Assembly: GCF_023525255.1 (NCBI RefSeq)
Contig: NZ_CP073355.1
Span: 1,736,001-1,800,000, forward strand
DNA: 64,000 nucleotides
Source of the DNA: Thermospira aquatica
GTDB taxonomy: Bacteria > Spirochaetota > Brevinematia > Brevinematales > Thermospiraceae
Direction: 5' to 3'
The stretch's first letter is position 1, and the number at the start of each line of letters is the position of its first letter. The notes below the pieces were generated by a model. That model made no database searches. It was given only the letters and a program-made list of their open reading frames with translations, and was not told the origin of the DNA. This document shows positions 699 through 62,560 of the stretch, one piece after another. A program made the translations under genes and the position numbers.

Positions 699-1820
699 AT
701 GGATAACTGGCAGTGGCGGACCCCTCCTGTGTTTTTTGGATGGGGGTGTACACACAGTGAGCTTCTCTCATTTCTTTCTTTTCGAGGAAAACGGTGGGCT
801 GTGTGTATGGGCTCTCACTTTCTCCAAAGGGAGTGGTCGCACTGGCAAGAGGTGGCTCATGATTATGGATTAGAGGTTGAGGCTTTTGTAGTGAGGGGTG
901 GTGAACCAACGGTTCCCCAGGTGGATGAGCTTACCATGAGGGTGAAAGCGTATCAACCGGATGGGATAGTAGGTATTGGGGGTGGAACTGTCCTTGATAC
1001 AGCCAAGGCTGTAGCTGCTATGGTGGTTCATCCTGGGAGTGTGGGAGACTACCTCGAAGAGGTAGGAACGAAAAAGCTTTTTTCTCAACCTCTTCCCTGG
1101 GTTGGAGTTCCGACGACAGCAGGAACAGGATCAGAATCTACCAAGAATTCGGTCATAATTGTTCCTGAAAAAAGGGTAAAACGTTCCTTGCGCCATGATA
1201 TGCTCTGGTCTCAGGGTGTCTTTCTTGATCCAGCTCTTACCCTTTCGCAGCCCTGGGAAGTAACGGTAAATGCCGGACTTGATGCCTTTACCCATCTGTT
1301 GGAGGCTGCGGTAAGCAAGAAATTTCACCCTTTTGCTCTTGCTTTAGCTGATCGATTTCTTGGAGATATTATTGAGGGACTTTCTTGTTTGAAAGAACAT
1401 CCTGAGGATAGAGAAGCACGAGAGAAGCTTCTTGTCGCAAGTAACGCGGGAGGGATGGCATTGGCAAATGGAGGGCTGGGATCGGTACACGGCTTTGCTG
1501 CGACACTAGGAGGTATGACAGATATTCCCCATGGAAGGGTGTGCGGGATAATTCTTGATCATGTGGTAGAGGTAAATAGACGCTATACTGAGAGATATGA
1601 GATGCTTGCGCTAGTAAAACACCACGGAGGAAGTGAAGGGTTTGTCCATTTTCTTTCTCAGTGGAAAAAGATGCTCGGTGTAGATACAGATTTTCGGCGC
1701 TGGAATCTTGCCCTCGACCCGGTGGAGATTGTGAGGCTTTCTACCAGTTCGAGTATGAAGGCTAACCCTGCTGACGTGCCGGCTTCCGATTGGATAGCTA
1801 TGTGGAAAAATCTCTTGTGA
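699..1820 (+). CDS. Iron-containing alcohol dehydrogenase
   Basis: A 373-residue protein of the Fe-dependent (group III) alcohol dehydrogenase family, NAD(P)-dependent and cytosolic. The start at 699 is chosen because AAGGAGGG precedes it; the open frame extends further upstream into the cupin gene but without a ribosome site. Visible motifs are the nucleotide-binding GIGGGTVLDTAKAVAA, the family signature PTTAGTGSEST, and metal ligands in LDAFTHLLEA and in GSVHGFAATLGGMTDIPHGR. Substrates in the family range from short alcohols and aldehydes to butanol, lactaldehyde and 1,3-propanediol; none can be chosen here. In an anaerobe it would plausibly reoxidise NADH during fermentation. Confidence 0.9.
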   Translation: MDNWQWRTPPVFFGWGCTHSELLSFLSFRGKRWAVCMGSHFLQREWSHWQEVAHDYGLEVEAFVVRGGEPTVPQVDELTMRVKAYQPDGIVGIGGGTVLDTAKAVAAMVVHPGSVGDYLEEVGTKKLFSQPLPWVGVPTTAGTGSESTKNSVIIVPEKRVKRSLRHDMLWSQGVFLDPALTLSQPWEVTVNAGLDAFTHLLEAAVSKKFHPFALALADRFLGDIIEGLSCLKEHPEDREAREKLLVASNAGGMALANGGLGSVHGFAATLGGMTDIPHGRVCGIILDHVVEVNRRYTERYEMLALVKHHGGSEGFVHFLSQWKKMLGVDTDFRRWNLALDPVEIVRLSTSSSMKANPADVPASDWIAMWKNLL

Positions 1821-7456: not shown

Positions 7457-7664
7457 CCCGTTGCGTCAAATAAAAAAGTACGTGAAATTCGAATCATTGC
7501 CTCATAAATAAAAGTACTTGAAAATTTCATGCTGTTTTGTCCGAGTTTTTGTTTCCGTGCTGCCTCAAGAGCCTGGCGGCATAGTTTCGGTTTTTTAAAC
7601 CTGTTATCCTCACAAAGTAATCCAGTATCTCCTTTTTCTCCTTTTTGCTGGCTTTTTGATACTC

Positions 7665-7688
7665 TGCTTCGACAAGCTCAGCATATCA
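7665..7688 (-). repeat. 24-bp insert in dead transposase carrying TGAGCTTGTCGAAGC
   Basis: Relative to the other copy of the element, 24 extra bases lie between codons AAA and GAG of the transposase. The core on the minus strand is TGAGCTTGTCGAAGC. It resembles the core of the tandem 23-mers at 7742-7787. Confidence 0.7.
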
Positions 7689-7741
7689 TTTCGCCGTTTC
7701 CCTGTCAATAGGTCTTTTTTCAAACATCGCCAACCCAATTC

Positions 7742-7787
7742 CGGTTGGCGAGCCTGTCGAGCCACGGTTGGCGAGCTTGTCGAGCCA
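7742..7787 (+). repeat. Two tandem 23-bp units, CGGTTGGCGAGCYTGTCGAGCCA
   Basis: Units at 7742-7764 and 7765-7787 differ at one base (C or T in GAGCYTGTCGAG). They replace the short spacer that precedes the transposase ATG in the other copy of this insertion sequence, so they were added after the element arrived. A third partial unit (GGGTTGGCGATG, read on the minus strand) lies next to them. Confidence 0.85.
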
Positions 7788-7881
7788 TGAACTGGATTAT
7801 TTTACACAAATTTAAAGTACTTTTTTATTTTGCAATAGCGTTCCCTTTTCGAGTACTTTTATTATGAAGCAATTCGAATTC

Positions 7882-7910
7882 TTGACTTTTTTTGGTTTTG
7901 GGCTTAAAGT
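7882..7910 (+). promoter_or_regulatory. Possible sigma-70 promoter for the ComFB-like gene
   Basis: TTGACT, a 17-bp spacer, then TAAAGT. It lies just outside the insertion-sequence remnant and 19 bp before the ATG at 7929. The -10 is weak, and the leader would be very short. Confidence 0.45.
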
Positions 7911-25372: not shown

Positions 25373-27589
25373 ATGCGAAGGGTGTGGGTGGTGGTATTGT
25401 TTTTTCTTAATTTTTCTTTAATGGCTGCTTTCTCGTTTGAGATTCCTCTTTTGGAAAACTGGCGGTATACGTATGGGGATAATGTTGTATATAGTCACGA
25501 GGAGTATGATGATAACGAGTGGATGGTGGTACAGTTTCCTACTACAACCTTTCGTTTTGAGGGTATAAGTGTTCCTTATACTTGGTTAAGAAAACGTTTT
25601 TTTGTTCCTGAGAGGTTAAAGGGTAATCGTTTGGGGCTCTATACGGGAAGAATTCATGATGCTGTGGAGATCTATCTCAATGGTGTTCTTATAGGCGTTT
25701 CTGGAAGTCAGCCTCCTCAGCGCTATTTCGGAACGCCTCATGCTCCGCGTGGATTTTTATTGCCTGAGGAAGTGTTGCGCTATGGTGGTACAAATCTTTT
25801 AGCTATTCGTGTTTATACGCATAAAACTCAGGGAGCTTTTGGAGAAATATTGGTGGCCCCGTATCAAGAGGTTCTTGAACGTGTTCATCGGGAGAGTTTT
25901 TTGGGGTTGGGTATTCCTCAAGTGGTAACTATTGTTTCTCTCTTTATGGTGTTGTATTTTCTCTTTTTATTCTGGAAGAACCGTGAAAAAACGTATCTCT
26001 TTTTGGCTATAGGAGCCTTTTTTATCGGAATTTATTACATGGATATTTATGTTGAGTATCTGCCGATAGACTATCTTCTTAAACAGAAGATAGCTTTTTC
26101 TGGTTTGTATTTGTGTTTTATATTTTTTATTCTTTTCTTTCATAGTTTTTATGGATTTCAAAGAAAATGGCAGGAAATGTTGGCGTTTATTTTTGGTGGG
26201 GGGAGTGTGATTGCAAATTTTCTTATGCCTGATTTTCCAATGTGGGAGATGATCATGGGATCAGTAGTTCAACTGGTCTGGGTGCTTCCAGCGGTGTTGT
26301 ATATTCTTTGGGTGAATCTTTCTGCCGTGTTTCAAAAAAAAACATATGCTTTTTTGATGTTTGTAGGGGCTTTTTTTGCCATTTTCTTTTCTCTGAGGGA
26401 TTCTTTTGGTTTTATTCTTCGCATGTGGGCACGTTACTGGACGTCATCGTGGGGGATGCTTCTTTTTTCAGTTTCGATGTTTATATCGATGGCGCTTCGG
26501 GCTGCGGATATTCAGAAGGAGAGTATGGAGAAGGAGGAAAAGTTGAGGAAGCAAAAGGGGGAACTGCAGGAGGTGCTTGAGAAAACGGAGCAGGTTGTGG
26601 TGGAGCTTGGGGAGACGAGTCAGGAGCTTGATCGGGAGATATCGAGTGCCAGGATGGCGATGGAATATGTGATAGATCTTTCGAGGGAGATGAGGGGGGA
26701 GTTTCAGAGGGAGGCTGAGAAGCTGAGGGAGAGTGCGAGAGCGACGGCGTTGGTAGCTGGAGGGATGGGGAATGTGATGCAACGTTTGGAGAGGGAGAAC
26801 CAGCTGATTCAGAGGGGGATGAAGAGTTTTGATGAACTGGTGAGGTCCATAGGGGAGATGGTGGGAGAACTCAGGCAGTTGAAGGATGTTATGGGAGGGT
26901 TGAAGGAAGGGGTATTGTCACTTGGGGAGCAGACGAAAGCGTCGCAGGGTGCGCTTGAGGAGCTTTCTGGGCGGGCGGAGAATGTGTTTGTGTTATTGGG
27001 GAATATTCAGAAGATAGCGGATGATACGAATACGCTTGCGATCAATGCGGCGATACAGTCGGCGCATGCTGGGGAGTATGGGAAGTCGTTTGCGATAGTT
27101 GGTCAGGAGGTAAGGAATCTTGCTTTGAGTGTAGCGAGGTTAGCGGAGACGGTGACGAGTGAGGTACAGGAGATGAATAATGAACTCTCTGGTGTGCAGG
27201 CGCATTTTGGGAGGTTGGAGCAGGAGTTTGGTCGGACGTTAAAGGAGCTTGAGAGGGTGGAGGGGCTTCTTGGGGTATTCCAGGAGAGGCTTGAGAAGCA
27301 AAGGGAAGGTTCTCAGAATGTAGTCATGACGATACAGGAGCTTGATAAGGTAGTGGGTGGGCTTTTGATGGATCTTGGGAAGCAGAAGGAAGATGTTCAG
27401 GAGTTTGTACGGACACTTGAAAAGACGGAGAAGCTTTTGGAAGCATTTATGAGCAAGCTGGATTCGCAGCGTGAGAAGGAGGAGAAAGTCTTGCAGGTGA
27501 TGGAGAGTCTTTCGGGTCTTTCTCAAAAACACAAAGAGATTGTTGCCAGTTTGACTGACGTGGTCATTGGGAAAGAGGGAAGGGGATAG
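25373..27589 (+). CDS. Methyl-accepting chemotaxis-like receptor with sugar-binding-like sensor and 7TM region (paralogue 1)
   Basis: A 738-residue protein. A signal sequence is followed by a periplasmic jelly-roll domain (about 20-175) resembling the 7TMR-DISMED2 or glycosidase sugar-binding fold: WLRKRFFVPERLKGNRLGLY, EIYLNGVLIGVSGSQPP. About seven membrane helices span residues 178-378. The cytoplasmic part is a long coiled coil with a chemoreceptor hairpin at about 543-590: IADDTNTLAINAAIQSAHAG and VGQEVRNLALSVARLAE, variants of the usual MCP tip. No HAMP domain is seen. It should signal to the CheA-CheW pair encoded 8 kb downstream. Its second half is nearly identical in DNA to the next gene. 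Confidence 0.85.
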   Translation: MRRVWVVVLFFLNFSLMAAFSFEIPLLENWRYTYGDNVVYSHEEYDDNEWMVVQFPTTTFRFEGISVPYTWLRKRFFVPERLKGNRLGLYTGRIHDAVEIYLNGVLIGVSGSQPPQRYFGTPHAPRGFLLPEEVLRYGGTNLLAIRVYTHKTQGAFGEILVAPYQEVLERVHRESFLGLGIPQVVTIVSLFMVLYFLFLFWKNREKTYLFLAIGAFFIGIYYMDIYVEYLPIDYLLKQKIAFSGLYLCFIFFILFFHSFYGFQRKWQEMLAFIFGGGSVIANFLMPDFPMWEMIMGSVVQLVWVLPAVLYILWVNLSAVFQKKTYAFLMFVGAFFAIFFSLRDSFGFILRMWARYWTSSWGMLLFSVSMFISMALRAADIQKESMEKEEKLRKQKGELQEVLEKTEQVVVELGETSQELDREISSARMAMEYVIDLSREMRGEFQREAEKLRESARATALVAGGMGNVMQRLERENQLIQRGMKSFDELVRSIGEMVGELRQLKDVMGGLKEGVLSLGEQTKASQGALEELSGRAENVFVLLGNIQKIADDTNTLAINAAIQSAHAGEYGKSFAIVGQEVRNLALSVARLAETVTSEVQEMNNELSGVQAHFGRLEQEFGRTLKELERVEGLLGVFQERLEKQREGSQNVVMTIQELDKVVGGLLMDLGKQKEDVQEFVRTLEKTEKLLEAFMSKLDSQREKEEKVLQVMESLSGLSQKHKEIVASLTDVVIGKEGRG
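26432..27356 (+). repeat. Near-identical 0.9-kb block shared by the two receptor genes, copy 1
   Basis: From CGTTACTGGACGTCATCG onward the DNA matches 28718-29642 with only a few differences seen by eye. A diverged patch of about 100 bp follows, then a further matching block to near the stop codons. Copy 2 is at 28718-29642. Upstream sensor and membrane regions are clearly less alike. Confidence 0.92.
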
Positions 27590-27652: not shown

Positions 27653-29866
27653 ATGCGGTGGTTAGGAATCATCTTTTTATTTTTTGCAAGGATTTCCTTG
27701 CTAGCGGCTTTTTCGTTTGAGATTCCTCTTTTGGAAAACTGGCGGTATACGTATGGGGATGATTCTCGTTATCGTGAAGTGGACTATAATGATTCTCAGT
27801 GGCAAACTGTTCAATTCCCTACAACCTTTTTTGTTTTTGAGGGTCAAGAGAATCCTTATACCTGGTTTCGTAAACATTTTTTTGTTCCTGAGAGTTTAAA
27901 GGGTAATCGTTTGGGTCTCTATACTGGAAGAATTCATGATGCTGTGGAGATCTATCTCAATGGTGTTCTTATCGGGGTTTCTGGAAGTCAGCCTCCGCAG
28001 CGCTATTTCGGAACGCCTAATACACCACGTGGTTTTTTATTGTCAGGTCAGATTCTCCGTTATGGAGAGACAAATCTCATAGCTTTACGTTTATACACAC
28101 ACAAAAAAACAGGTTCTTTTGGGAAAATTGTCATAGCACCATATCATGAGGTGTTTCAGCGGGTACGCTTGGATTATTTTTTGGGGATAGGAATTCCTCA
28201 AATTGTGGCGGTAATTGCCCTTTTTATGCTTGTCTATTTTTTCTCTTTGTTTTTAAAGAGTCGAGAAAACTATTATCTTTTTATTGGCTTTGCTATGTTT
28301 TTTATAGGGGTTTTTTATTATATAGATCTCTGTGTGGAATATCTTTCTTTTGTTGATTATCTTACGAAAACCAAGATTGCTTACATGGGTTTGTATCTGG
28401 CGTTGGTATGTTTTATTTTGTTTTTTCACAGGATATATGAGACGGGAAAAAGATGGATTGAAGTTTTGGTGATAGGCATAGGAATCGTATCGATTGTGGT
28501 CAATTTTGTGGTTTCAGATTATGCCTCTTGGCAAATGGTGACCACTTCTGTGATGCATCCTTTGTGGGTACTTCCAGCAATGTTGTATATCCTAGGGATA
28601 AATATTTGGGCTATGTTTCATAAAAAACCGTATGCTATTTTAATGGGGGGTGGCTTTTTCTTTGCAGTTTTCTTTGGTATTCATGATTCGATGAGATTTA
28701 TGCTTAACATGTGGATGCGTTACTGGACGTCATCGTGGGGGATGCTTCTTTTTTCAGTTTCGATGTTTATATCGATGGCGCTTCGGGCTGCGGATATTCA
28801 GAAGGAGAGTATGGAGAAGGAGGAAAAGTTGAGGAAGCAAAAGGGGGAACTGCAGGAGGTGCTTGAGAAAACGGAGCAGGTTGTGGTGGAGCTTGGGGAG
28901 ACGAGTCAGGAGCTTGATCGGGAGATATCGAGTGCCAGGATGGCGATGGAATATGTGATAGATCTTTCGAGGGAGATGAGGGGAGAGTTTCAGAGGGAGG
29001 CGGAGAAGCTGAGGGAGAGTGCGAGAGCGACGGCGTTGGTAGCTGGAGGGATGGGGAATGTGATGCAACGTTTGGAGAGGGAGAACCAGCTGATTCAGAG
29101 GGGGATGAAGAGTTTTGATGAACTGGTGAGGTCCATAGGGGAGATGGTGGGAGAACTCAGGCAGTTGAAGGATGTTATGGGAGGGTTGAAGGAAGGGGTA
29201 TTGTCACTTGGGGAGCAGACGAAAGCGTCGCAGGGTGCGCTTGAGGAGCTTTCTGGGCGGGCGGAGAATGTGTTTGTGTTATTGGGGAATATTCAGAAGA
29301 TAGCGGATGATACGAATACGCTTGCGATCAATGCGGCGATACAGTCGGCGCATGCTGGGGAGTATGGGAAGTCGTTTGCGATAGTTGGTCAGGAGGTAAG
29401 GAATCTTGCTTTGAGTGTAGCGAGGTTAGCGGAGACGGTGACGAGTGAGGTACAGGAGATGAATAATGAACTCTCTGGTGTGCAGGCGCATTTTGGGAGG
29501 TTGGAGCAGGAGTTTGGTCGGACGTTAAAGGAGCTTGAGAGGGTGGAGGGGCTTCTTGGGGTATTCCAGGAGAGGCTTGAGAAGCAAAGGGAAGGTTCTC
29601 AGAATGTAGTCATGACGATACAGGAGCTTGATAAGGTAGTGGCTGGGCTTTTAATGGATCTTGGTAAGCAGAAGGGAGAGGTGCAAGAGTTTGTGAGGAT
29701 ACTTGAGGAGACGGAGAAGCTTCTTGGGGCATTTATGAGCAAGCTGGATTCGCAGCGTGAGAAGGAGGAGAAAGTCTTGCAGGTGATGGAGAGTCTTTCG
29801 GGTCTTTCTCAAAAACACAAAGAGATTGTTGCCAGTTTGACTGAGGTGGTCGTTGGGAAAGTGTGA
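27653..29866 (+). CDS. Methyl-accepting chemotaxis-like receptor with sugar-binding-like sensor and 7TM region (paralogue 2)
   Basis: About 737 residues with the same plan as the preceding receptor: signal peptide, periplasmic jelly-roll domain, seven hydrophobic helices, coiled-coil MCP domain. ATG 27653 has AGGGAGAG upstream; ATG 27635 is the alternative. The sensor and membrane parts have diverged, with local islands of identity (for example KGNRLGLYTGRIHDAVEIYL), while the signalling half is almost unchanged. The two receptors therefore probably sense different ligands but send the same output. It is followed by a strong terminator. Confidence 0.85.
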   Translation: MRWLGIIFLFFARISLLAAFSFEIPLLENWRYTYGDDSRYREVDYNDSQWQTVQFPTTFFVFEGQENPYTWFRKHFFVPESLKGNRLGLYTGRIHDAVEIYLNGVLIGVSGSQPPQRYFGTPNTPRGFLLSGQILRYGETNLIALRLYTHKKTGSFGKIVIAPYHEVFQRVRLDYFLGIGIPQIVAVIALFMLVYFFSLFLKSRENYYLFIGFAMFFIGVFYYIDLCVEYLSFVDYLTKTKIAYMGLYLALVCFILFFHRIYETGKRWIEVLVIGIGIVSIVVNFVVSDYASWQMVTTSVMHPLWVLPAMLYILGINIWAMFHKKPYAILMGGGFFFAVFFGIHDSMRFMLNMWMRYWTSSWGMLLFSVSMFISMALRAADIQKESMEKEEKLRKQKGELQEVLEKTEQVVVELGETSQELDREISSARMAMEYVIDLSREMRGEFQREAEKLRESARATALVAGGMGNVMQRLERENQLIQRGMKSFDELVRSIGEMVGELRQLKDVMGGLKEGVLSLGEQTKASQGALEELSGRAENVFVLLGNIQKIADDTNTLAINAAIQSAHAGEYGKSFAIVGQEVRNLALSVARLAETVTSEVQEMNNELSGVQAHFGRLEQEFGRTLKELERVEGLLGVFQERLEKQREGSQNVVMTIQELDKVVAGLLMDLGKQKGEVQEFVRILEETEKLLGAFMSKLDSQREKEEKVLQVMESLSGLSQKHKEIVASLTEVVVGKV
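28718..29642 (+). repeat. Near-identical 0.9-kb block shared by the two receptor genes, copy 2
   Basis: Second copy of the block at 26432-27356, offset by 2286 bp. It encodes the last membrane helix and the coiled-coil signalling domain up to the diverged patch near the C-terminus. Confidence 0.92.
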
Positions 29867-29881
29867 AAAGAGGGTAATAAA

Positions 29882-31264: not shown

Positions 31265-32060
31265 TGTTGGTGTTCTGAAGGAACTTGCTTCTCTGGTTTA
31301 TGAGGTGAGCGGTATTGTGTTTAAAGATTCTAATCTTACTGTGCTTGAGAGTCGGTTGAGAACGAGGATTAATGAGAAACACTGTTCCCCTCGTGAATAT
31401 ATCCAGATTCTCCGGACGAATGATCAGGAACTTCGGGATTTTGTGGATTTTGTGACGACGAATTTTACCAGTTTTTTCCGTTATCCGCGACATTTTGAGA
31501 TGTTACGGACAGAGATTTTGCCCAAGGTAGTGCAAAAAAGCTCCGAAAAAAAGATTACGATCTGGAGTGCAGGGTGTTCCACAGGAGAGGAACCCTATTC
31601 TCTCGCTATAACGCTGGATATTTTTCTTCGGGAGAATGAGATGTTTGATTGGGAGTATGCTGTTATAGGTTCGGATATCAGTCTTCAAAGTCTTTTTGTG
31701 GCAAAAGAGGGGGTTTTCCCTGAAAAGGCTTTTACAAAAGTGCCAGAGGATCTTGTTCAAAAGTACTTTGTGAAAACCTCTAAAGGATACCAGATAGTTC
31801 CTGAGATAGCGAAACACATTCGTTTTGATTATCACAATCTGATTTATGATAATGGACTTCGGGATATTCCTGTGGTTTTTTGTCGAAATGTCTTGATTTA
31901 TTTTGATCTTGCTGTACAATTGAAAGTGCTGGAAAATATTCATCGTGCCATGAGAAGTGGAGGTTTTTTGTTTATAGGACATTCTGAGAGTTTAATAAGG
32001 ATTACCAATATGTTTCATCCACAGAGTTTCTCACAAGGGGTAGTGTATGTCAAATCGTAA
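31254..32060 (+). CDS. cheR: Chemotaxis protein methyltransferase
   Basis: A 268-residue enzyme that methylates glutamates on chemoreceptors using S-adenosylmethionine. The N-terminal helical domain (SGIVFKDSNLTVLESRL) is followed by the catalytic domain, with TTNFTSFFRYPRHFEML, the SAM-binding IWSAGCSTGEEPYSLA, and VVFCRNVLIYFD. The C-terminus ends in GHSESL, as usual. Its start overlaps the upstream unknown gene by 11 bp and its end overlaps cheB by 14 bp. Together they set adaptation for the receptors encoded just upstream. Confidence 0.95.
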   Translation: MEIDVGVLKELASLVYEVSGIVFKDSNLTVLESRLRTRINEKHCSPREYIQILRTNDQELRDFVDFVTTNFTSFFRYPRHFEMLRTEILPKVVQKSSEKKITIWSAGCSTGEEPYSLAITLDIFLRENEMFDWEYAVIGSDISLQSLFVAKEGVFPEKAFTKVPEDLVQKYFVKTSKGYQIVPEIAKHIRFDYHNLIYDNGLRDIPVVFCRNVLIYFDLAVQLKVLENIHRAMRSGGFLFIGHSESLIRITNMFHPQSFSQGVVYVKS

Positions 32061-33159
32061 GATACGAGTCTTAATTATCGATGATTCGGTTTTGATTCGT
32101 AAGTATGTCACACAAATCTTGTCAGAAATTAATGATGTGGAAGTGGTCGGAAGTGCACCAAATGGCAAGATCGGACTCCAGAAGATTTTTCTCTACAAAC
32201 CGGATGTAGTGATTCTGGATATTGAGATGCCTGAGATGAATGGTCTTGAGGTTTTGCAGTATTTGAAAGACAAAGTAGAAACAAAAAATAGGCCTCATGT
32301 GATTGTGTTCAGTTCTGTAGTGGGTGATGGAAGTCCTACAACATGGGAGGCATTGAGTCTTGGTGCTAAGGAGATTATGCTTAAGCCTGATTCACCGATT
32401 TATCAGAACCTGGAGGAGGTAAAAAAAGAATTTCAGCTCAAGATAGAAGGTCTTTTTTATCAGTTGGGGACTTCGAAGTCCGAAGTAAAACCAGTTGAAA
32501 AGGAAGAAGACCGTCTTTTGGAGGGTGTTCGAACTTCCCTTGTTGGAGTCAAAGAAGTAATGAAACAAAAGCCTATTGTGCCTCGTTTGGTAGCCATAGG
32601 TTCATCCACGGGGGGACCAAACGCTATACGTTCAATCATGGAACATCTTGGAGAACTTTCTGTTCCTATGGTGATAGCTCAGCATATGCCACCTCTTTTT
32701 ACAGGTGAATTTGCGAAAAATCTTTCTTTAGCCTATCGTCGTCCAGTGAAGGAACTTACAGAGGGAGAAAAGCTTCAACCAGGTTTCATCTATGTCTGTC
32801 CGGGAGGCACTCATGCTAGGATTGATAAAGATGGCGACGATCTTGTGTTTCATAGGGACGAAAAAAATTACGAGGAATTTTTCTTTAAACCTTCTGTCGA
32901 TATTTTCTTTAAGTCTATAAAAGAAGCCGTGGGGAACCGAGTAGTAGCTGTGGTTTTGAGTGGAATGGGAAAAGATGGTTCTCTTGAGGCACCAAGTCTC
33001 AGAAAATTGGGGGCTATTGTCCTGGCTCAGGATAAGGCTACGTCGGTGGTTTGGGGGATGCCAGGGAACGCTGTTAAGAGTGGCGGAGTGGATGTGGTTT
33101 TGCCTATTCATGAAATGGGGCAAGCAATAACTATGCTTGCAGGGAAAAAAGATGTGTAA
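32047..33159 (+). CDS. cheB: Chemotaxis response regulator protein-glutamate methylesterase
   Basis: A 370-residue protein. The receiver domain (1-125) has the acidic pair IDDS and the phospho-acceptor Asp58 (VVILDIEMPEMNGLEV). The methylesterase domain (about 180-370) carries AIGSSTGGPNAIRS with the catalytic Ser near 187, His213 in AQHMPPLFTG, and SGMGKDGS. It removes methyl groups from receptors and is activated by CheA phosphorylation. The inter-domain linker is long. It overlaps cheR and is followed, after 55 bp with a promoter, by cheA. Confidence 0.95.
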   Translation: MSNRKIRVLIIDDSVLIRKYVTQILSEINDVEVVGSAPNGKIGLQKIFLYKPDVVILDIEMPEMNGLEVLQYLKDKVETKNRPHVIVFSSVVGDGSPTTWEALSLGAKEIMLKPDSPIYQNLEEVKKEFQLKIEGLFYQLGTSKSEVKPVEKEEDRLLEGVRTSLVGVKEVMKQKPIVPRLVAIGSSTGGPNAIRSIMEHLGELSVPMVIAQHMPPLFTGEFAKNLSLAYRRPVKELTEGEKLQPGFIYVCPGGTHARIDKDGDDLVFHRDEKNYEEFFFKPSVDIFFKSIKEAVGNRVVAVVLSGMGKDGSLEAPSLRKLGAIVLAQDKATSVVWGMPGNAVKSGGVDVVLPIHEMGQAITMLAGKKDV

Positions 33160-39230: not shown

Positions 39231-40042
39231 AGTGGTGGAAAAATGTATTTCTTGCGAGTGTATTGGTTGGATGTAGTCGGTATTATACCTTTGATCGGTA
39301 TTATGACGAACAAAACTGGCAACAGGCCAAGGAGATTCTGGAGAATATTTCTGAGAAAAATACAGATGCCTACCGTTTACGGTTGTATCGGATCACTTTT
39401 CGTTTGGCTCTGGCAGGAGATTCCCAGGTTCTTGAAAGGTTAAAGCTTCTTCTTGAAAAAGAAGATCCACGATTTAGAGGGTATCAGGAGTTTGGTCGTT
39501 TGTATCTGTCGTTTGTAAATGCTTTGCAATCCGGTGATTTTGAAAATGTCCTTGGGTTGAAAGAACCCTTTTCACGTTTTCCTGAGGAATTTCAGCCCTA
39601 TGCTGCTCAGATTTTTGGGATAGCCCACCTTATGAAAAATGAAGCAGAGGAGGCAAGAAAGTATCTCCAGAAATCATATATGATGGAGCCCATGCAGGAT
39701 ACCTTGTACTTTTTAGGGCAGGCTCATCTCATGTGTGGGAGTGAGCAGGATGCTGTAGCCACCTGGAAACAGGTAATAGCTGCAAAACCAGGCGGGAAAC
39801 TGGAAGCCATGAGTTATTTTCAACTCGGGGAACTGGAATACAATAAAGGAAACTTTTCCCAGGCTCTTGAGTGGTATTTTGCGGCGGTAAATCTTTATCC
39901 GGAATCTGAAATATTTGTGGATAAGATAGCTTTTTGTTACCAGAAGATGAAAAATAAAAAACTCAGTGAAAAGTTTCGCAAAATTGCTCTCAGGATCAAT
40001 CAGGATTATGCTACAGCATGGTTTTATTTGAATTTTAATTAA
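39227..40042 (+). CDS. TPR lipoprotein
   Basis: A 271-residue protein with a lipobox at the N-terminus (VFLASVLVGCS, lipidated Cys at residue 16), so it is probably tethered to a membrane in the periplasm. TPR-like pairs run through the rest: WQQAKEILENISEKNTDAYR, AEEARKYLQKSYMMEPMQDT, GNFSQALEWYFAAVNLYPES. The ATG overlaps the Smr stop by 4 bp. No specific family is recognised. It closes the operon that begins at the ROK kinase, or at cheA. Confidence 0.75.
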   Translation: MKWWKNVFLASVLVGCSRYYTFDRYYDEQNWQQAKEILENISEKNTDAYRLRLYRITFRLALAGDSQVLERLKLLLEKEDPRFRGYQEFGRLYLSFVNALQSGDFENVLGLKEPFSRFPEEFQPYAAQIFGIAHLMKNEAEEARKYLQKSYMMEPMQDTLYFLGQAHLMCGSEQDAVATWKQVIAAKPGGKLEAMSYFQLGELEYNKGNFSQALEWYFAAVNLYPESEIFVDKIAFCYQKMKNKKLSEKFRKIALRINQDYATAWFYLNFN

Positions 40043-40044
40043 GC

Positions 40045-40073
40045 TTGAAAAGTTTGTATGTTTTCGCTATACT
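40045..40073 (+). promoter_or_regulatory. Sigma-70 promoter for purU
   Basis: TTGAAA, 17-bp spacer, TATACT, 26 bp before the purU ATG. Confidence 0.78.
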
Positions 40074-40098
40074 ACTATGAAGAAAAGAGGAGATGAGG

Positions 40099-40953
40099 AT
40101 GAGCGGAACAGCGATTCTTTTACTTTCTTGTCCTGATCAGAAGGGAATTGTCGCAGAGATTGCAAGTTTTATTTATCAATATGATGGTAATATTGTTCAT
40201 TCTGATCAGCATACCGATGTTGAAACCAATACGTTTTTTATGCGGATTGAATGGGAACTGGAAGGGTTTCGTATTCCCAGGGAAAAGATAGCCCAGGCTT
40301 TTAGCTTTATTGCAGACAAGTTTTCTATGGATTGGAGGTTGGTTTTCTCTGATGAAGTGCCGAGAGTGGCGATCATGGTTTCTAAGTTTGATCATTGTTT
40401 GTATGATCTTTTACTGAAATGGCAGTCAAAAGAGATAAAGATGGAGATTCCTTTGATCATCAGCAATCATGAAGATTTAAGACCTGTGGCGGACTATTAT
40501 CATATCCCATACTATTGTTTTCCTGTAACTCCAGAAACGAAAACAGAGGTGGAAAGAGAGGAACTGAAAATTCTTAGGGAATATACAATAGATACGGTTG
40601 TTCTGGCAAGGTATATGCAGGTGTTGTCAACAGATTTTATTCGCGAGTATCCAAACCGTATTATTAATATCCACCATTCGTTTTTGCCTGCTTTTGTGGG
40701 AGCAAAGCCTTACCATCAGGCATATGCGAGAGGAGTAAAGATCATTGGAGCCACAAGTCACTATGTGACCGAAGAGCTAGATAATGGTCCTATTATTGTT
40801 CAGGATGTGATCGCGGTGAGTCATAGGGATAGTATCCATGATATGATTAACAAAGGAAAAGAGGTAGAGAAAAGGGTACTGAGTCGCGCGGTGAAGTTGC
40901 ATACGGAGAATAAGGTTCTGGTTTTTCACAATAAAACGGTGGTGTTTGATTAG
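40099..40953 (+). CDS. purU: Formyltetrahydrofolate deformylase
   Basis: A 284-residue enzyme that releases formate and tetrahydrofolate from 10-formyl-THF, balancing one-carbon pools and feeding formate-dependent purine synthesis. The N-terminal ACT domain begins ILLLSCPDQKGIVAEIA. The formyltransferase-like domain has LIISNHEDL, VVLARYMQVLS, the catalytic INIHHSFLPAFVGAKPY with its HHS motif, and the Asp in TEELDNGPII. ATG 40099 is preferred over 40093, which would sit directly on the AGAGGAG site. It has its own promoter. Confidence 0.95.
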   Translation: MSGTAILLLSCPDQKGIVAEIASFIYQYDGNIVHSDQHTDVETNTFFMRIEWELEGFRIPREKIAQAFSFIADKFSMDWRLVFSDEVPRVAIMVSKFDHCLYDLLLKWQSKEIKMEIPLIISNHEDLRPVADYYHIPYYCFPVTPETKTEVEREELKILREYTIDTVVLARYMQVLSTDFIREYPNRIINIHHSFLPAFVGAKPYHQAYARGVKIIGATSHYVTEELDNGPIIVQDVIAVSHRDSIHDMINKGKEVEKRVLSRAVKLHTENKVLVFHNKTVVFD

Positions 40954-51337: not shown

Positions 51338-51392
51338 AGGTACCTCCTTATTACATTGTAGTGGAGAGCTGAAAATCTGTCAAGTCATCGAA

Positions 51393-51453
51393 TTGCTTCA
51401 TAATAAAAGTACTCGAAAAGGGAACGCTATTGCAAAATAAAAAAGTACTCCAA
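51393..51453 (+). repeat. Left end of the IS: two direct transposase-site-like repeats
   Basis: TTGC at 51393 and TTGC at 51430, each followed by A/T-rich sequence and AAAAGTACTC, 37 bp apart. Confidence 0.8.
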
Positions 51454-51509
51454 ATCTGTGTATAAAATAATCCAGTTCAAAGAACTGGAGGTAAAAGGTG
51501 GAGTTAGCG

Positions 51510-52731
51510 ATGTTTGAAAGGAGACCTATTTACAGGGAAACGGCGAAAGAGTATCAAAAAGCCAGCAAAAAGGAAAAAATGGAGATACTGGATTATTTTG
51601 TGAGGATAACAGGTTTAAAAAACCGAAACTATGCCGCCAGGCTCTTGAGGCAGCACGGAAAAACCATATATGTAGGCAAAAAAAATTACCTTAAAGCCGA
51701 TATAGCCAAAAAGGGCAAAAGACCTGGCAGAAAGAAAAAATTCGGCGAAGAAGAACTAAAACTTCTAAAAAAGGTCTGGGAAATTGAAAACTACATGTGT
51801 GGCAAACGTTTAAAGCCAATTTTAAATGAAGTTTTAGATAATCTCTTAGCAAACGGACATCTCCAGGGTTTTCAACAGGCTATAGAAAACTTGCGCCATA
51901 TAAGTGCCTCAAGTATTGACCGACTTTTGAAACATGAGCGTAAAAAGCTTGAGATAAAAGGACGAAAAGGTACAAAGCCTGGAACGCTATTAAAGCAACA
52001 AATAGCTATACGCACGTGGGCAGAGTGGGATGAAAATTGCCCTGGTTTTATGGAGATTGATCTGGTAGCCCATGAGGGAGGAAATAGCCGGGGAGACTTT
52101 GCTCAAACATTAAATATGGTGGATGTTTGGAGCGGTTGGACAGAGCTTGTGGCAATCAAAAACAAAGCTTCAAAATGGGTAAGAGAAGCCATAGAAAAGT
52201 CAAAGGAAGACTTCCTTTGAGTTACGGGGAATTGATTCTGATACCGCGTTGAATTTATTAATCATCCTCTACGCGATTGGTGTGAGAAGCACCAGATAAA
52301 ATTTACAAGGGGAGAAGCTCCCGTTCCAATGATAACTGCTACGTTGAGCAGAAAACTATTCCATAGTCCGCCAGAATGTTGGATACTTCCGCTACGATAC
52401 CGAGGAAGAAGTCTACTACTTGAACCGACTCTATGCGTATCTCAGGCTTTATGCCAACTTTTTTCAACCGGTTATGAAAATGACAGAGAAAAAGAGAATC
52501 GGAAGCAAGGTGCAAAAGAAGCATGATGATATTAAAACTCCCTACCAACGGCTTTTAGAAAGCTCTTATGTAAGTGAGGCACAAAAGGAACGCCTAACAA
52601 GGCTTTATAAGGCTCTCGATTTGTTTCACCTAAGACAAAAAATTACGGCTTGCCAGAGAAAACTTTTCAGCCTTCAAAAGAAAAAGAATGTAAAAAACAA
52701 AAATTTGGAGGAAACTGTATGGAATTTTTGA
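51510..52731 (+). pseudogene. DDE integrase-type transposase, multiply frameshifted
   Basis: The first 237 codons from ATG 51510 are intact: an N-terminal helix-turn-helix region (ITGLKNRNYAARLLRQHGKT) and the first catalytic Asp in MEIDLVAHEGG, followed by TLNMVDVWSGWTE. The frame then breaks near 52210-52220 and again several times up to about 52370. Reading across the breaks recovers FELRGIDSDT (second Asp), EFINHPLRDWCEKHQIKFTR, NDNCYVEQK (the Glu), then IVRQNVGYFRYDTEEEVYYL and an open C-terminus to 52731. These motifs fit the ISNCY/IS481-like integrase transposases. At least four indels mean that it is inactive. Confidence 0.85.
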
Positions 52732-52788
52732 GTACTTTTTTTTATGAGGCAATGATTCGAATTTCGAGTACTTTTTTATTTGACGCAA
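52729..52788 (-). repeat. Right end of the IS: two inverted transposase-site-like repeats
   Basis: GAGTACTTTT...GCAA occurs twice, with GCAA at 52749-52752 and 52785-52788 (36 bp apart), the mirror image of the left end. It overlaps the last 3 bp of the transposase frame. Confidence 0.8.
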
Positions 52789-52827
52789 CGGGTTTTTGGT
52801 TCATTTTGCAACATAGGAGGAAAAATT

Positions 52828-57955: not shown

Positions 57956-58560
57956 GGTTTGGGCCTTGGAGACAGTGTTTCGAGAAAGTTGCATTGGATA
58001 CTTTTCTTAATTGGAGGGGAAAAAGCTCTTTCCCTGTTGCAGTGAGAACGTGGTTTTTAATAGTTGTTTCCTTGTTTCAGGCAAAAAATTCTTGCTATTA
58101 CCTTTTTGCAGTGAGCGTGAAAACCGAAAGCTATTACCTTATCGCAGTGAGAGAAACTCTTGCTCTTTCTTTGTTGCAGCGGGAAAAATTTCCAGCTATT
58201 ACTTTTTCACAGTGTTAAACCATCCGATAAAGCTGCAAAAGGGTAATAGCTTATGTGAAAGATTTCAGGTTAAGCGTTTAACTAATATATCCCTTTGTAC
58301 ACTTTCAAGTGCTTGAAGATTTGCTCTTACCTAATTACAGCAATGTTGTCTTTACATTTTTCCTGCAACAGGGAAAGAGCTACCCCCACTTCCTGCAACA
58401 GGGAAAGAGCAAAAATACTTTTTTTCCTGTAAAAAGGTAATAGCATATCTTTGGAGAGTAAGCTCGAGTGCTATGGTGAAAAGGTGCCTTAAAGTGCTTT
58501 TATTTTCTGTATAAGAAACACACGCTCTTTTTGATTTTTTTCTGTTGTTTCTGTAAACTA
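57956..58560 (+). repeat. Array 1 of a degenerate 18-bp repeat (11 copies) in a long intergenic region
   Basis: The gap before hisF holds no gene but contains 11 copies of an 18-mer, consensus about GCTMTTWCCYTDTYGCAG. Forward copies start at 58025, 58063 (weak), 58094, 58130, 58162, 58195 and 58323. Reverse copies start at 58233, 58363, 58393 and 58427. Start-to-start steps are 38, 31, 36, 32, 33, 38, 90, 40, 30 and 34 bp. The copies at 58025, 58363 and 58393 are identical (GCTCTTTCCCTGTTGCAG). Spacers differ from each other. A near-palindrome, GGTTAAGCGTTTAAC, lies at 58268-58282. The role is unknown. Confidence 0.85.
58531..58559 (+). promoter_or_regulatory. Sigma-70 promoter for hisF
   Basis: TTGATT, 17-bp spacer, TAAACT, 16 bp before the hisF ATG at the end of repeat array 1. 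Confidence 0.6.
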
Positions 58561-58575
58561 ACGTTGGGAGGATTT

Positions 58576-59346
58576 ATGTATGCCAAACGGATTATTCCGT
58601 GTCTGGATATTCACCAGGGTCGAGTGGTGAAGGGAGTCAAGTTTCAAAACCTTAGAGATGCTGGCGATCCCGTGGAGAATGCTCGTTTTTATGATGAGGC
58701 TGGAGCAGATGAACTCGTCTTTCTTGACATCTCAGCAACCCATGAAAATAGAGGGATTATGGTAGATGTGGCTAGAGCTGTTGCCAGAGAGGTTTTTATT
58801 CCTTTTACTATTGGTGGTGGTATACGAACACTTGACGATATACGGGATATTCTTCTGGCCGGGGCGGACAAGGTTTCTATCAACTCCATGGCGGTGAGAA
58901 ATCCTGAGTTTATTTCCCAGGCATCGAAACGTTTTGGATCTTCAACCATTGTGGTTGCTATTGATGTGAAACAGGTAACTGAGGGAAAATGGAATGTATT
59001 TATTAGTGGTGGGAGAATTGATACTGGACTTGATGCTATAGAATGGGCAAAAGAAGTGTGTGAGAGAGGGGCTGGAGAGATTTTGTTAACATCAATGGAT
59101 AAGGATGGGACAAAAGATGGGTATGATCTTGAGATTACACGTCGAATTGCTGAAAGTGTAAGTGTCCCTGTGATTGCCTCTGGGGGTGCAGGGAAAAAAG
59201 AGGATTTTCTTGATGTTTTTCAAAAAACCTCGGTAAGTGCTGCTCTTGCGGCATCTCTTTTTCATTTTCGTGAACTGGATATTACGGAACTCAAGCGTTA
59301 CCTCTCTGAAAATGGGATAACCGTGAGACTGGATTATACGGAGTAA
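58576..59346 (+). CDS. hisF: Imidazole glycerol phosphate synthase cyclase subunit
   Basis: A 256-residue HisF TIM barrel. It converts PRFAR with ammonia from HisH to imidazole glycerol phosphate and AICAR, in histidine synthesis. The catalytic Asp near residue 11 is in [14 protein letters not shown] and the second, near 130, in VVAIDVKQV; phosphate-binding loops are [13 protein letters not shown] and [16 protein letters not shown] 58576 follows GGGAGG and fits the family start ([10 protein letters not shown]). No hisH or other his gene is nearby, which is unusual. The HAD-Smr gene follows at 2 bp. Confidence 0.93.
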
Positions 59347-59348
59347 GT

Positions 59349-60245
59349 ATGGTTCGATATGCTGCTATCATCTGGGATATGGATGGAACATTGGTAGATA
59401 GCTTGCCGGTAATCTATGAGGCTTTTTCGAAAATGCTCGTTCGTTTTGGACGGGAGCCTGTTTCCAGGGAATGGATGAAAAAGCGAATTGGTTTTCCATT
59501 TCGGGAAACAATGGAGGTGGTGGGGCTGGGGGAGGATGCTATTCAATATTATCGAGAGGTGTATTTTTCTCTCTGGGAGAAACACAAACCTTTTGAGGGG
59601 ATAGAGGCAGTGCTTGCCGAACTGTACGGCAAAATACCTATGGTGATAGTTTCAAATAAAAGCCGGGAAGGTATTCAACGAACACTCTCTCCCTGGAATG
59701 GAGAACGTTGGTTTGACCTGATTGTTTCCGAGAATGATGTGACACATCCCAAACCTCATCCTGAGGCTTTTGAATTGGTGAAACGTTTTTGGAAAGAGCA
59801 GGGAAAGCCTCTTGAAGGAAAGGATGTGCTCATGGTTGGTGATACAGAGATTGATGAGACTTTTGCGAAGAATGTGGGGATGGAGTTTGCCTATGCACGT
59901 TGGGGGTATGGAGAGGTGAATGCCCCCGATTATATTCTCAAAAAACCTTCTGATCTGATACAAATCGTGGGATGGGATGAGGAGTTGCCCCTGTGTAATG
60001 GACCTGAGTTAGACCTTCATGGTTTTGCTTCTCAAGATGTATCCCGTGTAGTGAAAACGTATCTTGATGAGGCATATAGAAAGGGTTATACCATGGTGCG
60101 TGTGATTCCTGGGAAAGGGAAAAGTGTGCGAAAGCAACAGGTGGCCAAGATTCTTCAAGAACATCCGTTGGTGAAAGATTTCAGGGAATCTCATCCAATG
60201 TGGGGTGGATGGGGTTCGTATGACGTTTTTTTAAAAGGGGAATAG
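59349..60245 (+). CDS. Fusion of a HAD phosphatase and an Smr domain
   Basis: A 298-residue protein of two domains. Residues 1-205 are a phosphoglycolate-phosphatase-like HAD enzyme: IIWDMDGTLVDSLP (nucleophile Asp), VIVSNKS (motif II), KPHPEAF with the motif III Lys, and VLMVGDTEIDETFAKN. Residues about 218-298 are an Smr domain: ELDLHGFASQDVSRVV, VRVIPGKGKSVRK and a closing GGWGSYDVFLK. HAD proteins remove phosphates from small molecules; Smr domains cut nucleic acids. The join hints at repair or end-processing of RNA or DNA, but this is inference. It sits between hisF and an ABC exporter, with gaps of 2 and 1 bp. Confidence 0.85.
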   Translation: MVRYAAIIWDMDGTLVDSLPVIYEAFSKMLVRFGREPVSREWMKKRIGFPFRETMEVVGLGEDAIQYYREVYFSLWEKHKPFEGIEAVLAELYGKIPMVIVSNKSREGIQRTLSPWNGERWFDLIVSENDVTHPKPHPEAFELVKRFWKEQGKPLEGKDVLMVGDTEIDETFAKNVGMEFAYARWGYGEVNAPDYILKKPSDLIQIVGWDEELPLCNGPELDLHGFASQDVSRVVKTYLDEAYRKGYTMVRVIPGKGKSVRKQQVAKILQEHPLVKDFRESHPMWGGWGSYDVFLKGE

Positions 60246-60246
60246 T

Positions 60247-61959
60247 ATGGCGTACCGTCGTCTTCTTCGATATGTAAACAAGCATGGGTGGTTATTTGGA
60301 TGTATGGTGATTTTTGCTCTTGGTGTGGTAGTGAGTAAACTTACAGCGGTGTATCAGCTTGCCGCTTTTTTTTCTGGTGTGTTTCTTGAAAAAACGATGC
60401 AAAATCCCTTTCAAAGTGCTTTTTTGCTTTTTTTGTCGGCGTCTTCCTGGGCTATTTCTCACTATGTGATGCTGGTGTGTTCTAATACCTTAGCTGTGAA
60501 GGTGTTGGCAGCCTTGAGACAGGATGTGTATGAAAAGGTACTTATGCTCCCGGTAGGATATTTTAAGTCCAAGCGTACGGGAGATATCATTAGTCGCTTG
60601 ACAAATGATATTCAGGTGGTTGAGGTTTTTTTGATGAATGTTTTGATAGAGTTGTTGGTTCAGCCGTTAACAGTGATAGCGATCATTATTATGATGGTGG
60701 TGAAACAACCACTTTTGACCTTGTACTTTTTTTCAGTCGTACCGATCCTGGGGATAGTCCTGGGTATTGTTGGAAATTGGGTGGAGCATGCTAGCCGAAA
60801 GGTTCAGGGGCATATTGCTGATGTGACATCCGGTATTCAGGAAACACTGTATGGGATAGATGTGATTAAGGGGTTTGCTGTGGAAGAGGTGATGAGGGAT
60901 CGGTTTTCAAGGCATAATCTGGGATATCTTTCCTCTCTTTTGCGAGAGGTTCGGATAAGGTTTCTCAGTACTCCGGTAGCGGAGTGGTTTGGTTCTCTTG
61001 GCATTATTATTATCTTGGTGATTGGTGGTCTCATGGTGCGACAGGGACAGATTGCAAGTGGGGATATAGTGTTCTTTCTTTTGCTGGCCACGGTGCTTTC
61101 TGAACCGCTCAGTCTCTCCAGTACGGTTTTTACAACGCTTCGTAAACTTTCTCCTGCTCTGGATAGGATTTATGAGGTTCTGGACTATGAGATTCCCGAT
61201 GAAAGTACGTTGCCTTCCTTAACCGAGGTGGAAGGGGAGCTTGTCTGCGAGAATGTCTCTTTTGGATATGAACCGGGACGCCTTGTTCTTCAGAATGTTT
61301 CGCTTACTATCCGCCCAAGAGAAACGGTGGCTATCGTGGGCCTCAGTGGTTCTGGGAAAACAACACTTGTCTCTCTTCTAGCAGGTTTTTATACACCAAC
61401 GAAGGGAAGAGTCCTGATCGACGGCAAGGAACTAACAAACTACAGCGGGAAAAGTTATCGGCATCACATGGGTATTGTGACGCAGGAACCAATTCTTTTC
61501 TCAGGGACCATACGAGAAAATATTGCGCTTTCTCGCCCTGAGGTATCGTTTGAGGAAATTGTTAAGGCAGCGAGGATAGCTCATGCCGATGTTTTTATAA
61601 GAAAACTTCCTCAGGGATATGATACATTGCTTGGGGATAAGGGGGCCCAGCTTTCTGGTGGAGAACGTCAGCGTATTGCTTTAGCTCGTGCTATCCTGCG
61701 CCGTCCTAGTGTTTTGATTCTTGATGAGGCAACCAGTGCTCTTGATGCGGAATCTGAACAGGCTATTCAAGATGCGATGGAAAATATTCTTGGTCAACAG
61801 ACCACTATTATTATTGCTCATAAACTTCTTACCATTATGCATGCGGATAGGATTGTTGTGCTCCATGAGGGGCAAGTGGTGGAAGTGGGGAGCCATAAAG
61901 AACTCCTGAAAAAAGGAGGGATTTATGCGAGACTTTTTCAGATGCAGATGGTGGATTAG
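60247..61959 (+). CDS. MsbA-type ABC exporter (fused membrane and ATPase domains)
   Basis: A 570-residue half-transporter with a six-helix membrane domain (1-310) and an ATPase domain with Walker A GLSGSGKTTLVSLLAG, Q-loop VTQEPILFSG, signature LSGGERQRIALARAIL, Walker B VLILDEATSALDAE and the H-loop His in IIIAHKLLTIMHADRI. The coupling region MLPVGYFKSKRTGDIISRLTNDI is typical of the MsbA/LmrA type, which flip lipids such as lipid A, or export drugs and peptides. It works as a dimer in the inner membrane. It is the last gene of the hisF block and is followed by repeat array 2. Confidence 0.93.
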   Translation: MAYRRLLRYVNKHGWLFGCMVIFALGVVVSKLTAVYQLAAFFSGVFLEKTMQNPFQSAFLLFLSASSWAISHYVMLVCSNTLAVKVLAALRQDVYEKVLMLPVGYFKSKRTGDIISRLTNDIQVVEVFLMNVLIELLVQPLTVIAIIIMMVVKQPLLTLYFFSVVPILGIVLGIVGNWVEHASRKVQGHIADVTSGIQETLYGIDVIKGFAVEEVMRDRFSRHNLGYLSSLLREVRIRFLSTPVAEWFGSLGIIIILVIGGLMVRQGQIASGDIVFFLLLATVLSEPLSLSSTVFTTLRKLSPALDRIYEVLDYEIPDESTLPSLTEVEGELVCENVSFGYEPGRLVLQNVSLTIRPRETVAIVGLSGSGKTTLVSLLAGFYTPTKGRVLIDGKELTNYSGKSYRHHMGIVTQEPILFSGTIRENIALSRPEVSFEEIVKAARIAHADVFIRKLPQGYDTLLGDKGAQLSGGERQRIALARAILRRPSVLILDEATSALDAESEQAIQDAMENILGQQTTIIIAHKLLTIMHADRIVVLHEGQVVEVGSHKELLKKGGIYARLFQMQMVD

Positions 61960-62560
61960 GTCTTTTCTATCACAGGTGATAAAGGGGCGGGAGACTTTTT
62001 GGAGTTTTTGTGGTTTTTCCCCTTTTCTATAAGCTATTACCTTTTCGCAGCTAGAAAAAGTCTGCCATGCTATTCCCTTATCGCAGTTAAGACGAAGATG
62101 CTTTTTGAAGCCGTTGCCATGTTTGGAAAAAGAGAGAAATGTTTGCTCTTACCCTGTTGCAGTTAGCTCCAGAGATTTTTAGCTATTCCCTTATCGCAGT
62201 CTAAACTCAGCCATTAGGAAGGAGTAATGCGGTAAAAGCCGCCATCCCCATTTTTTGGTTAAACGTTTAACCAGGGTTTTTCTGCCTTTTTTTGAGTGTA
62301 TCGGGTTTTGCTATTACCTTAATGCAGTTTAATGGGAATCAAAAGACTGTAACAAAGCAAGAGCATATCCAAAAAATTTCAGGCCAAACTTTTACACAGT
62401 GTTTCAATCCGTACACTTGATTGTAAAGAGATTTGCTCTTTCTTTATTGCAGTGTAACATTCTGACTTTTCCATGTGAGCTTTTAAAACAAAACTGCAAC
62501 AAGGTAAGAGCAACTTCCCACATCCTACGACAATCTTTTACTCCTGGGCTTGCTGTTTAT
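61960..62560 (+). repeat. Array 2 of the degenerate 18-bp repeat (8 clear copies)
   Basis: The gap after the ABC exporter carries the same 18-mer. Forward copies start at 62033, 62069, 62145, 62182, 62310 and 62435; reverse copies start at 62347 and 62494. A very weak copy at 62110 fills the double-length step between 62069 and 62145. Two copies (62069, 62182) are identical: GCTATTCCCTTATCGCAG. A perfect 16-bp palindrome, GGTTAAACGTTTAACC, lies at 62257-62272. The region also shares ATTTCAGG and the stretch before the copy at 62435 with array 1. No gene is seen in it. Confidence 0.85.

Follow-up and report, generated by a model that had tools for sequence, protein, structure and literature searches.

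The window analysed here, a 64,000-nucleotide stretch of the Thermospira aquatica genome (hereafter G000; a single contig of 2.515 Mb, of which the window covers bases 1736001-1800000), carries a block of three forward-strand genes with an array of short repeats on either side. The first gene, hisF (58576..59346), encodes a protein 86% identical in both congeners (G001 and G002); it is followed by a fusion of a HAD hydrolase and an Smr domain (59349..60245; Pfam HAD_2 and Smr), whose orthologues stand directly after hisF in both congeners, and by an ABC transporter gene (60247..61959). All three species keep the fusion at this place, with hisF before it and the ABC gene after it, and nucleotide similarity to both congeners spans 58526-61954, taking in the transporter gene and ending at the arrays. 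hisF-HAD/Smr-ABC is a conserved operon.

Array 1 (58025..58444, forward strand) holds 11 copies of an 18-mer in the order ++++++-+---, running from 58025+ to 58427-. Array 2 (61994..62511, forward strand) has eight recognised copies in the order +++++-+- (62033+, 62069+, 62145+, 62182+, 62310+, 62347-, 62435+ and 62494-) and a degenerate left edge. The copies listed in the initial annotation were all found where it had placed them; its extent for array 2, 62033-62511, is right for the recognised copies and too short on the left, where the array reaches 61994.

The 18-mer and the family of arrays

The 18-mer has the consensus GCTMTTNCCTTNTYGCAG, which gave 717 matches in the genome with at most two mismatches (400+317) against 13 (7+6) for the reversed control. 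Allowing up to three mismatches, there are 23 matches in the window against 1.16 expected, and one isolated copy (1233..1250, forward strand, two mismatches) lies outside any array. Our catalogue, built from stretches around pattern matches and thus possibly missing some arrays, contains 64 arrays, which together hold 739 copies and share a recurrent architecture: 18-bp sites follow one another at fairly regular intervals of about 36 bp, inverted pairs lie toward the inner side, and array length and position are variable. Direct repeats make up the majority of the copies in G000, and a tail module (+ 33-42 - 74-101 +) is present in 48 of the 64 arrays. Long arrays at genome positions 31265-32179, 39320-40286 and 423601-424769 have 20-30 copies each and are closely similar; a cluster of nested insertion sequences separates the first two, which are direct repeats. 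Another palindrome, a GTTAAACGTTTAAC-like motif, occurs in the wider gap of both window arrays (58268-58283 and 62257-62273), in 17 of the 64 arrays by a strict pattern and at several G002 loci.

The arms of the inverted pairs show no covariation and no excess of matching arms (42 and 20 pairs), from which it follows that hairpin formation is not under selection; this favours putative double-stranded binding sites over hairpins. An apparent preference for mismatches at positions 14-15 of the inverted pairs was discounted, since the pairs share ancestry.

The two window arrays had been read as diverged, same-orientation copies of one element, in part because their copies, labelled by the fourth base of the 18-mer, share the order A, A, C, A. 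The labels were read correctly in both arrays, but a homologous order is not supported: the spacers between these copies are not significantly similar (p=0.10), the spacings are unlike (36, 32 and 33 bp in array 1 versus 36, 76 and 37 bp in array 2), and genome-wide the fourth base is A about as often as C (330 and 349 of 739 copies). A further A copy does follow in both arrays, in opposite orientations (58233- versus 62310+). The tail is a different matter. The succession of ATTTCAGG, GTACACTT and GATTTGCTCTT before a reversed C copy was correctly described for both arrays, and the homology extends beyond the 18-mers, with a spacer-only score of 19.0 against a null of 10.2 +/- 1.9 that none of 500 shuffles exceeded or equalled. 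Alignment of the two arrays, which had been proposed as a check, recovers similarity outside the 18-mers in the tail and no significant similarity in the A, A, C, A spacers. The tail module of array 1 (58233..58380, forward strand) starts with a reversed copy and ends with a forward and a reversed one, the gap after the first copy containing ATTTCAGG and GTTAAGCGTTTAAC; that of array 2 (62347..62511, forward strand) is homologous to it. Because the same module recurs in 48 arrays, the collinearity of arrays 1 and 2 is a family-level trait.

Array relationships were established by masking every 18-mer and aligning the spacers only. The closest relative of array 1 is the array at 2388723-2389233 (score 80.8), followed by arrays scoring 58-70 that mostly flank an ORF, and the closest relative of array 2 is at 2396213-2396624 (score 54.0); between arrays 1 and 2 the score is 20.5, about rank 30 of 126. 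With spacers included, array 1 is 72-78% identical over approximately 300 bp to arrays flanking an IS1595-like ORF and matches the array at 2388723 with 83% identity along 247 bp. Array 2 matches the array at 2396213 with 86% identity along 168 bp, in an alignment that starts at 61994. Both window arrays are members of the family that have no ORF, and their best relatives lie about 0.6 Mb away. The description as diverged copies of one element hence holds for the 64-array family and not for this pair in particular; judged by their spacers, arrays 1 and 2 belong to one dispersed family and are not a matched pair. The arrays at 2388723 and 2396213 (L201 and L202) themselves flank an rpoD/trp block, sharing one orientation at a distance of 7 kb; such proximity may have arisen by chance (a probability of a few per cent) or be the trace of an exchange between the two loci.

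Array-ORF-array elements and their IS1595-derived protein

G000 carries a 266-aa ORF in thirteen intact copies, which share 92-96% identity with the query copy, together with broken ones. In 12 of the 13 there are arrays on both sides; at the thirteenth (L032) the left side ends within the inner 18-mer, half of which is kept. A complete element consists of array, ORF and array, approximately 2 kb in all, with about 130 bp between the inner reversed 18-mer copy and the start codon. In nearly all elements the two outermost copies face inward as a pair, with many internal copies besides. Such units stand at unrelated addresses with approximately 94% identity over 2 kb (L013 3460-5428 versus L035 932-2902), and the arrays are therefore the ends of a mobile element and move with it. 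In G002, two elements terminate exactly at 18-mer edges, and many elements of 52-55 bp each consist of one inverted pair.

Within Brevinematales, ORF and repeat have also diverged in step in three or more lineages: the G002 ORFs (approximately 42-44% identical) accompany GCTATTNCCTTGTTTCAG, and a third ORF lineage, in G001, accompanies GYTCTCTCCTTTTCTCA, which occurs ten times within 6.7 kb and not once in shuffled sequence. Relatives were recovered by protein search in Brevinematales metagenome assemblies (isolates Ch60, SKW221 and SKW211).

The arrays might instead have spread by homologous recombination and gene conversion without transposition, the breaks in gene order being a consequence. 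Array relationships are indeed mosaic, with left and right arrays of different elements swapped and reversed, and inspection of the outer edges of the ORF-bearing copies and of the short G002 elements revealed no 8-bp target-site duplications to mark the insertion boundaries, though age could have erased these and their absence has known trivial causes (PMC11708052). However, arrays also sit in otherwise conserved contexts where the congener gap is much shorter, which requires an insertion step: at the two array-bearing junctions whose gene order G001 shares, alignable genes stand 607 bp apart in G000 versus 103 bp in G001 (at 1804206) and 780 bp versus 320 bp (at 503162), as fits array insertion into an existing intergenic site. 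We consider recombination as the sole route rather unlikely, if the best placed of the competing explanations.

Other repeated sequences were also seen. An rve/IS481-like insertion sequence at window positions 51381-52797 has 40 genome copies with near-identical 3' ends; copies lie 21-90 bp from an array edge at 784029, 637890, 228930, 40286, 577196 and 1403922 and farther away elsewhere, an association that is only suggestive given that the loci were chosen for their arrays. Internally rearranged fragments of the same rve-type element occupy 7457-7899 of the window, and a direct duplication of approximately 2.2 kb (25413-27581 and 27693-29867, 85% identical) is unrelated to the arrays.

The N-terminus of the 266-aa protein matches Zn_ribbon_IS1595 above the cut-off (E 2.5e-11 to 4.8e-9). 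The DDE_Tnp_IS1595 profile is matched by the intact G000 copies only over approximately positions 112-153 of 153, below the cut-off, and the NCBIfam IS1595 transposase model gave 63.1 and 44.0 bits against a cut-off of 75, compared with 216.6 for a canonical relative. Residues D150, D216, N254 and K256 are invariant in eight canonical relatives. The array-associated proteins of G000, G001 and G002, like the G007 relative, have another residue in place of the first catalytic Asp, and the block of the second Asp is missing or unrecognisable. Some members keep an acidic residue near the expected position of the second Asp, and a partly rebuilt active site is possible. No complete IS1595 DDE domain that could act as a helper was found in G000, G001, G002 or G007. 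A fold search with a model of a G002 homologue (mean pLDDT 83.6) against solved structures returned weak, non-significant integrase matches only; the canonical one was of lower quality (pLDDT 73.1). In Paenibacillus, IS1595-like proteins at four loci (L078, L080, L087 and L095) adjoin tandem repeats with periods of 42-47 bp, and the two that were checked, L078 and L080, show neither the first nor the second catalytic Asp in alignment; the four loci are a possible parallel case.

Despite the loss of DDE/DDN catalytic residues, the protein is under strong purifying selection. Over the 13 copies (78 pairs) dN is 0.028, dS 0.251 and dN/dS 0.11, figures to be read with the copies being non-independent and gene conversion possibly depressing both rates. 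By region, dN/dS is 0.07 in the zinc ribbon and predicted helix-turn-helix, 0.11 in the degenerate middle and 0.19 in the C-terminal part. Such selection on a protein without catalytic residues would also be expected if the arrays were regulatory or chromosome-organising sites of the host and the ORF product a domesticated regulator that putatively binds them, as would several hundred 18-mer copies and their fairly regular spacing of about 36 bp. Yet the ORF gene is multi-copy and travels inside arrays, where domestication usually leaves a single fixed gene; the arrays differ in length and position, and the orthologous hisF places in the congeners have none. A host function of this type seems to us unlikely.

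Gene order around the hisF block

The genes flanking the hisF block differ across the three species, except for a small lipoprotein gene common to G001 and G002. The pair upstream in G000 (dnaJ and an ArsB-like permease) and the pair downstream (TM1266-like and HydG-like) are each a conserved unit elsewhere in the congeners, which means that three conserved blocks meet at this locus, with an array at each joint. The pattern extends beyond the window: when junctions were compared with gene order in G001, only 2 of 16 testable array-bearing junctions were adjacent there, against 8 of 9 array-free ones (Fisher p=0.0003), an excess of arrays at breaks whose effect size is uncertain with a control of nine mostly co-directional junctions. 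Part of this contrast may stem from arrays sitting between operons.

The initial annotation had likened the hisF block to a cassette and proposed comparing the locus in related strains. Comparison with the congeners bears out a conserved block with different neighbours and an array at both of its joints in G000, and it places the block at different addresses in the congeners; no arrays accompany it there, so that a mobile cassette with the arrays as integral parts is not what the locus shows. A composite transposon, in which two element copies move the block as cargo, would account for the shared orientation of the arrays and the changing address of the block, and the proximity of the arrays' nearest relatives, 7 kb apart around the rpoD/trp block, also speaks for it. 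The genes between 2389233 and 2396213 are, however, unrelated to the hisF block; neither window array has an ORF copy, each is far closer to a distant array than to the other (80.8 and 54.0 versus 20.5), and in G001 and G002 the block has other neighbours and no array. On the array relationships and the array-free congener loci we rejected the composite transposon, which now appears improbable. A better reading of the "cassette" is a block of genes bounded by two rearrangement joints that each carry an array, and an array-marked rearrangement joint fits the locus better than a composite transposon.

Known systems and the proposed explanation

The closest known protein belongs to the IS1595 family (ISXO2-like, and related to eukaryotic Merlin), whose features have been summarised (PMC8101967). 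Shared with that family are the zinc ribbon, the C-terminal YH...H.QRY.DEF block, an ORF of approximately 260-310 aa and what may be a short inverted end motif. Unlike its members, the element described here has neither the first catalytic Asp nor the block of the second, its ends are multi-site arrays instead of one pair of terminal repeats, and the 8-bp duplication is not seen; with the DDE residues and the duplication both wanting, it is derived from IS1595 and is not a standard member. Foldback-type transposons, in which a gene lies between long outer arms built of many short repeats, have a similar plan, but here the left and right arms do not mirror each other as long inverted repeats (in G002, only the inner pair matches).

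The closest known layout is that of neisserial dRS3/NIME, in which a 20-bp repeat, ATTCCC(N8)GGGAAT, is present in almost 700 copies, mainly in intergenic arrays of 200-2700 bp, and is a suggested promoter of rearrangement (PMC3898611). A high-copy short repeat in intergenic arrays and a suggested part in rearrangement are common to both. The repeats differ, the consensus here being GCTMTTNCCTTNTYGCAG, and in T. aquatica the spaces are short and variable and a transposase-like gene lies inside many arrays.

In REP/REPIN systems with RAYT (TnpA-REP), short intergenic repeats and a diverged transposase diverge together (PMC8266576), a pairing also seen here, where the gene is multi-copy and inside the arrays. 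That the arrays are themselves REP/REPIN-like palindromes spread by a Y1 transposase we rejected as very improbable: inverted pairs 33-44 bp apart do resemble REP doublets, especially in G002, and the copies are numerous and intergenic, but Y1_Tnp (PF01797) was found in none of G000, G001 and G002 against 6 of 14 control genomes (a highly diverged one could escape), the arms do not covary as stems would, and most G000 copies are direct repeats.

We consider it very probable, taking the account as a whole, that the two window arrays are diverged, ORF-less copies of a dispersed family with an IS1595-derived protein as its predicted 18-mer binder, and that the arrays mark, and probably help to cause, rearrangements. 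The 18-mer forms the end of the element and is probably the binding site of the ORF product, which most likely binds 18-mers at both ends and brings the ends together. Strand transfer could then proceed by a changed active site or a partner enzyme, or copies could spread via recombination; this is how a family that has lost the standard active site may have multiplied. Insertion is into intergenic DNA, where arrays may then offer dispersed stretches of homology and sites at which a break is tolerated, and rearrangements would come to join blocks of genes there. On this account the arrays would be a cause of rearrangements as well as their markers. More tentatively, it is possible that the family is a mobile one spreading in several lineages with a DDE-less transposase homologue and a site array as its end, served by a new active site or a recruited enzyme.

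A disarmed transposase kept in 13 copies under strong selection goes against the usual expectation of decay or of a single-copy host gene, and raises the question of how such an element moves and whether a partner enzyme is needed. The system likewise links broken gene order to a high-copy repeat, in an order of spirochaetes that has received little study.
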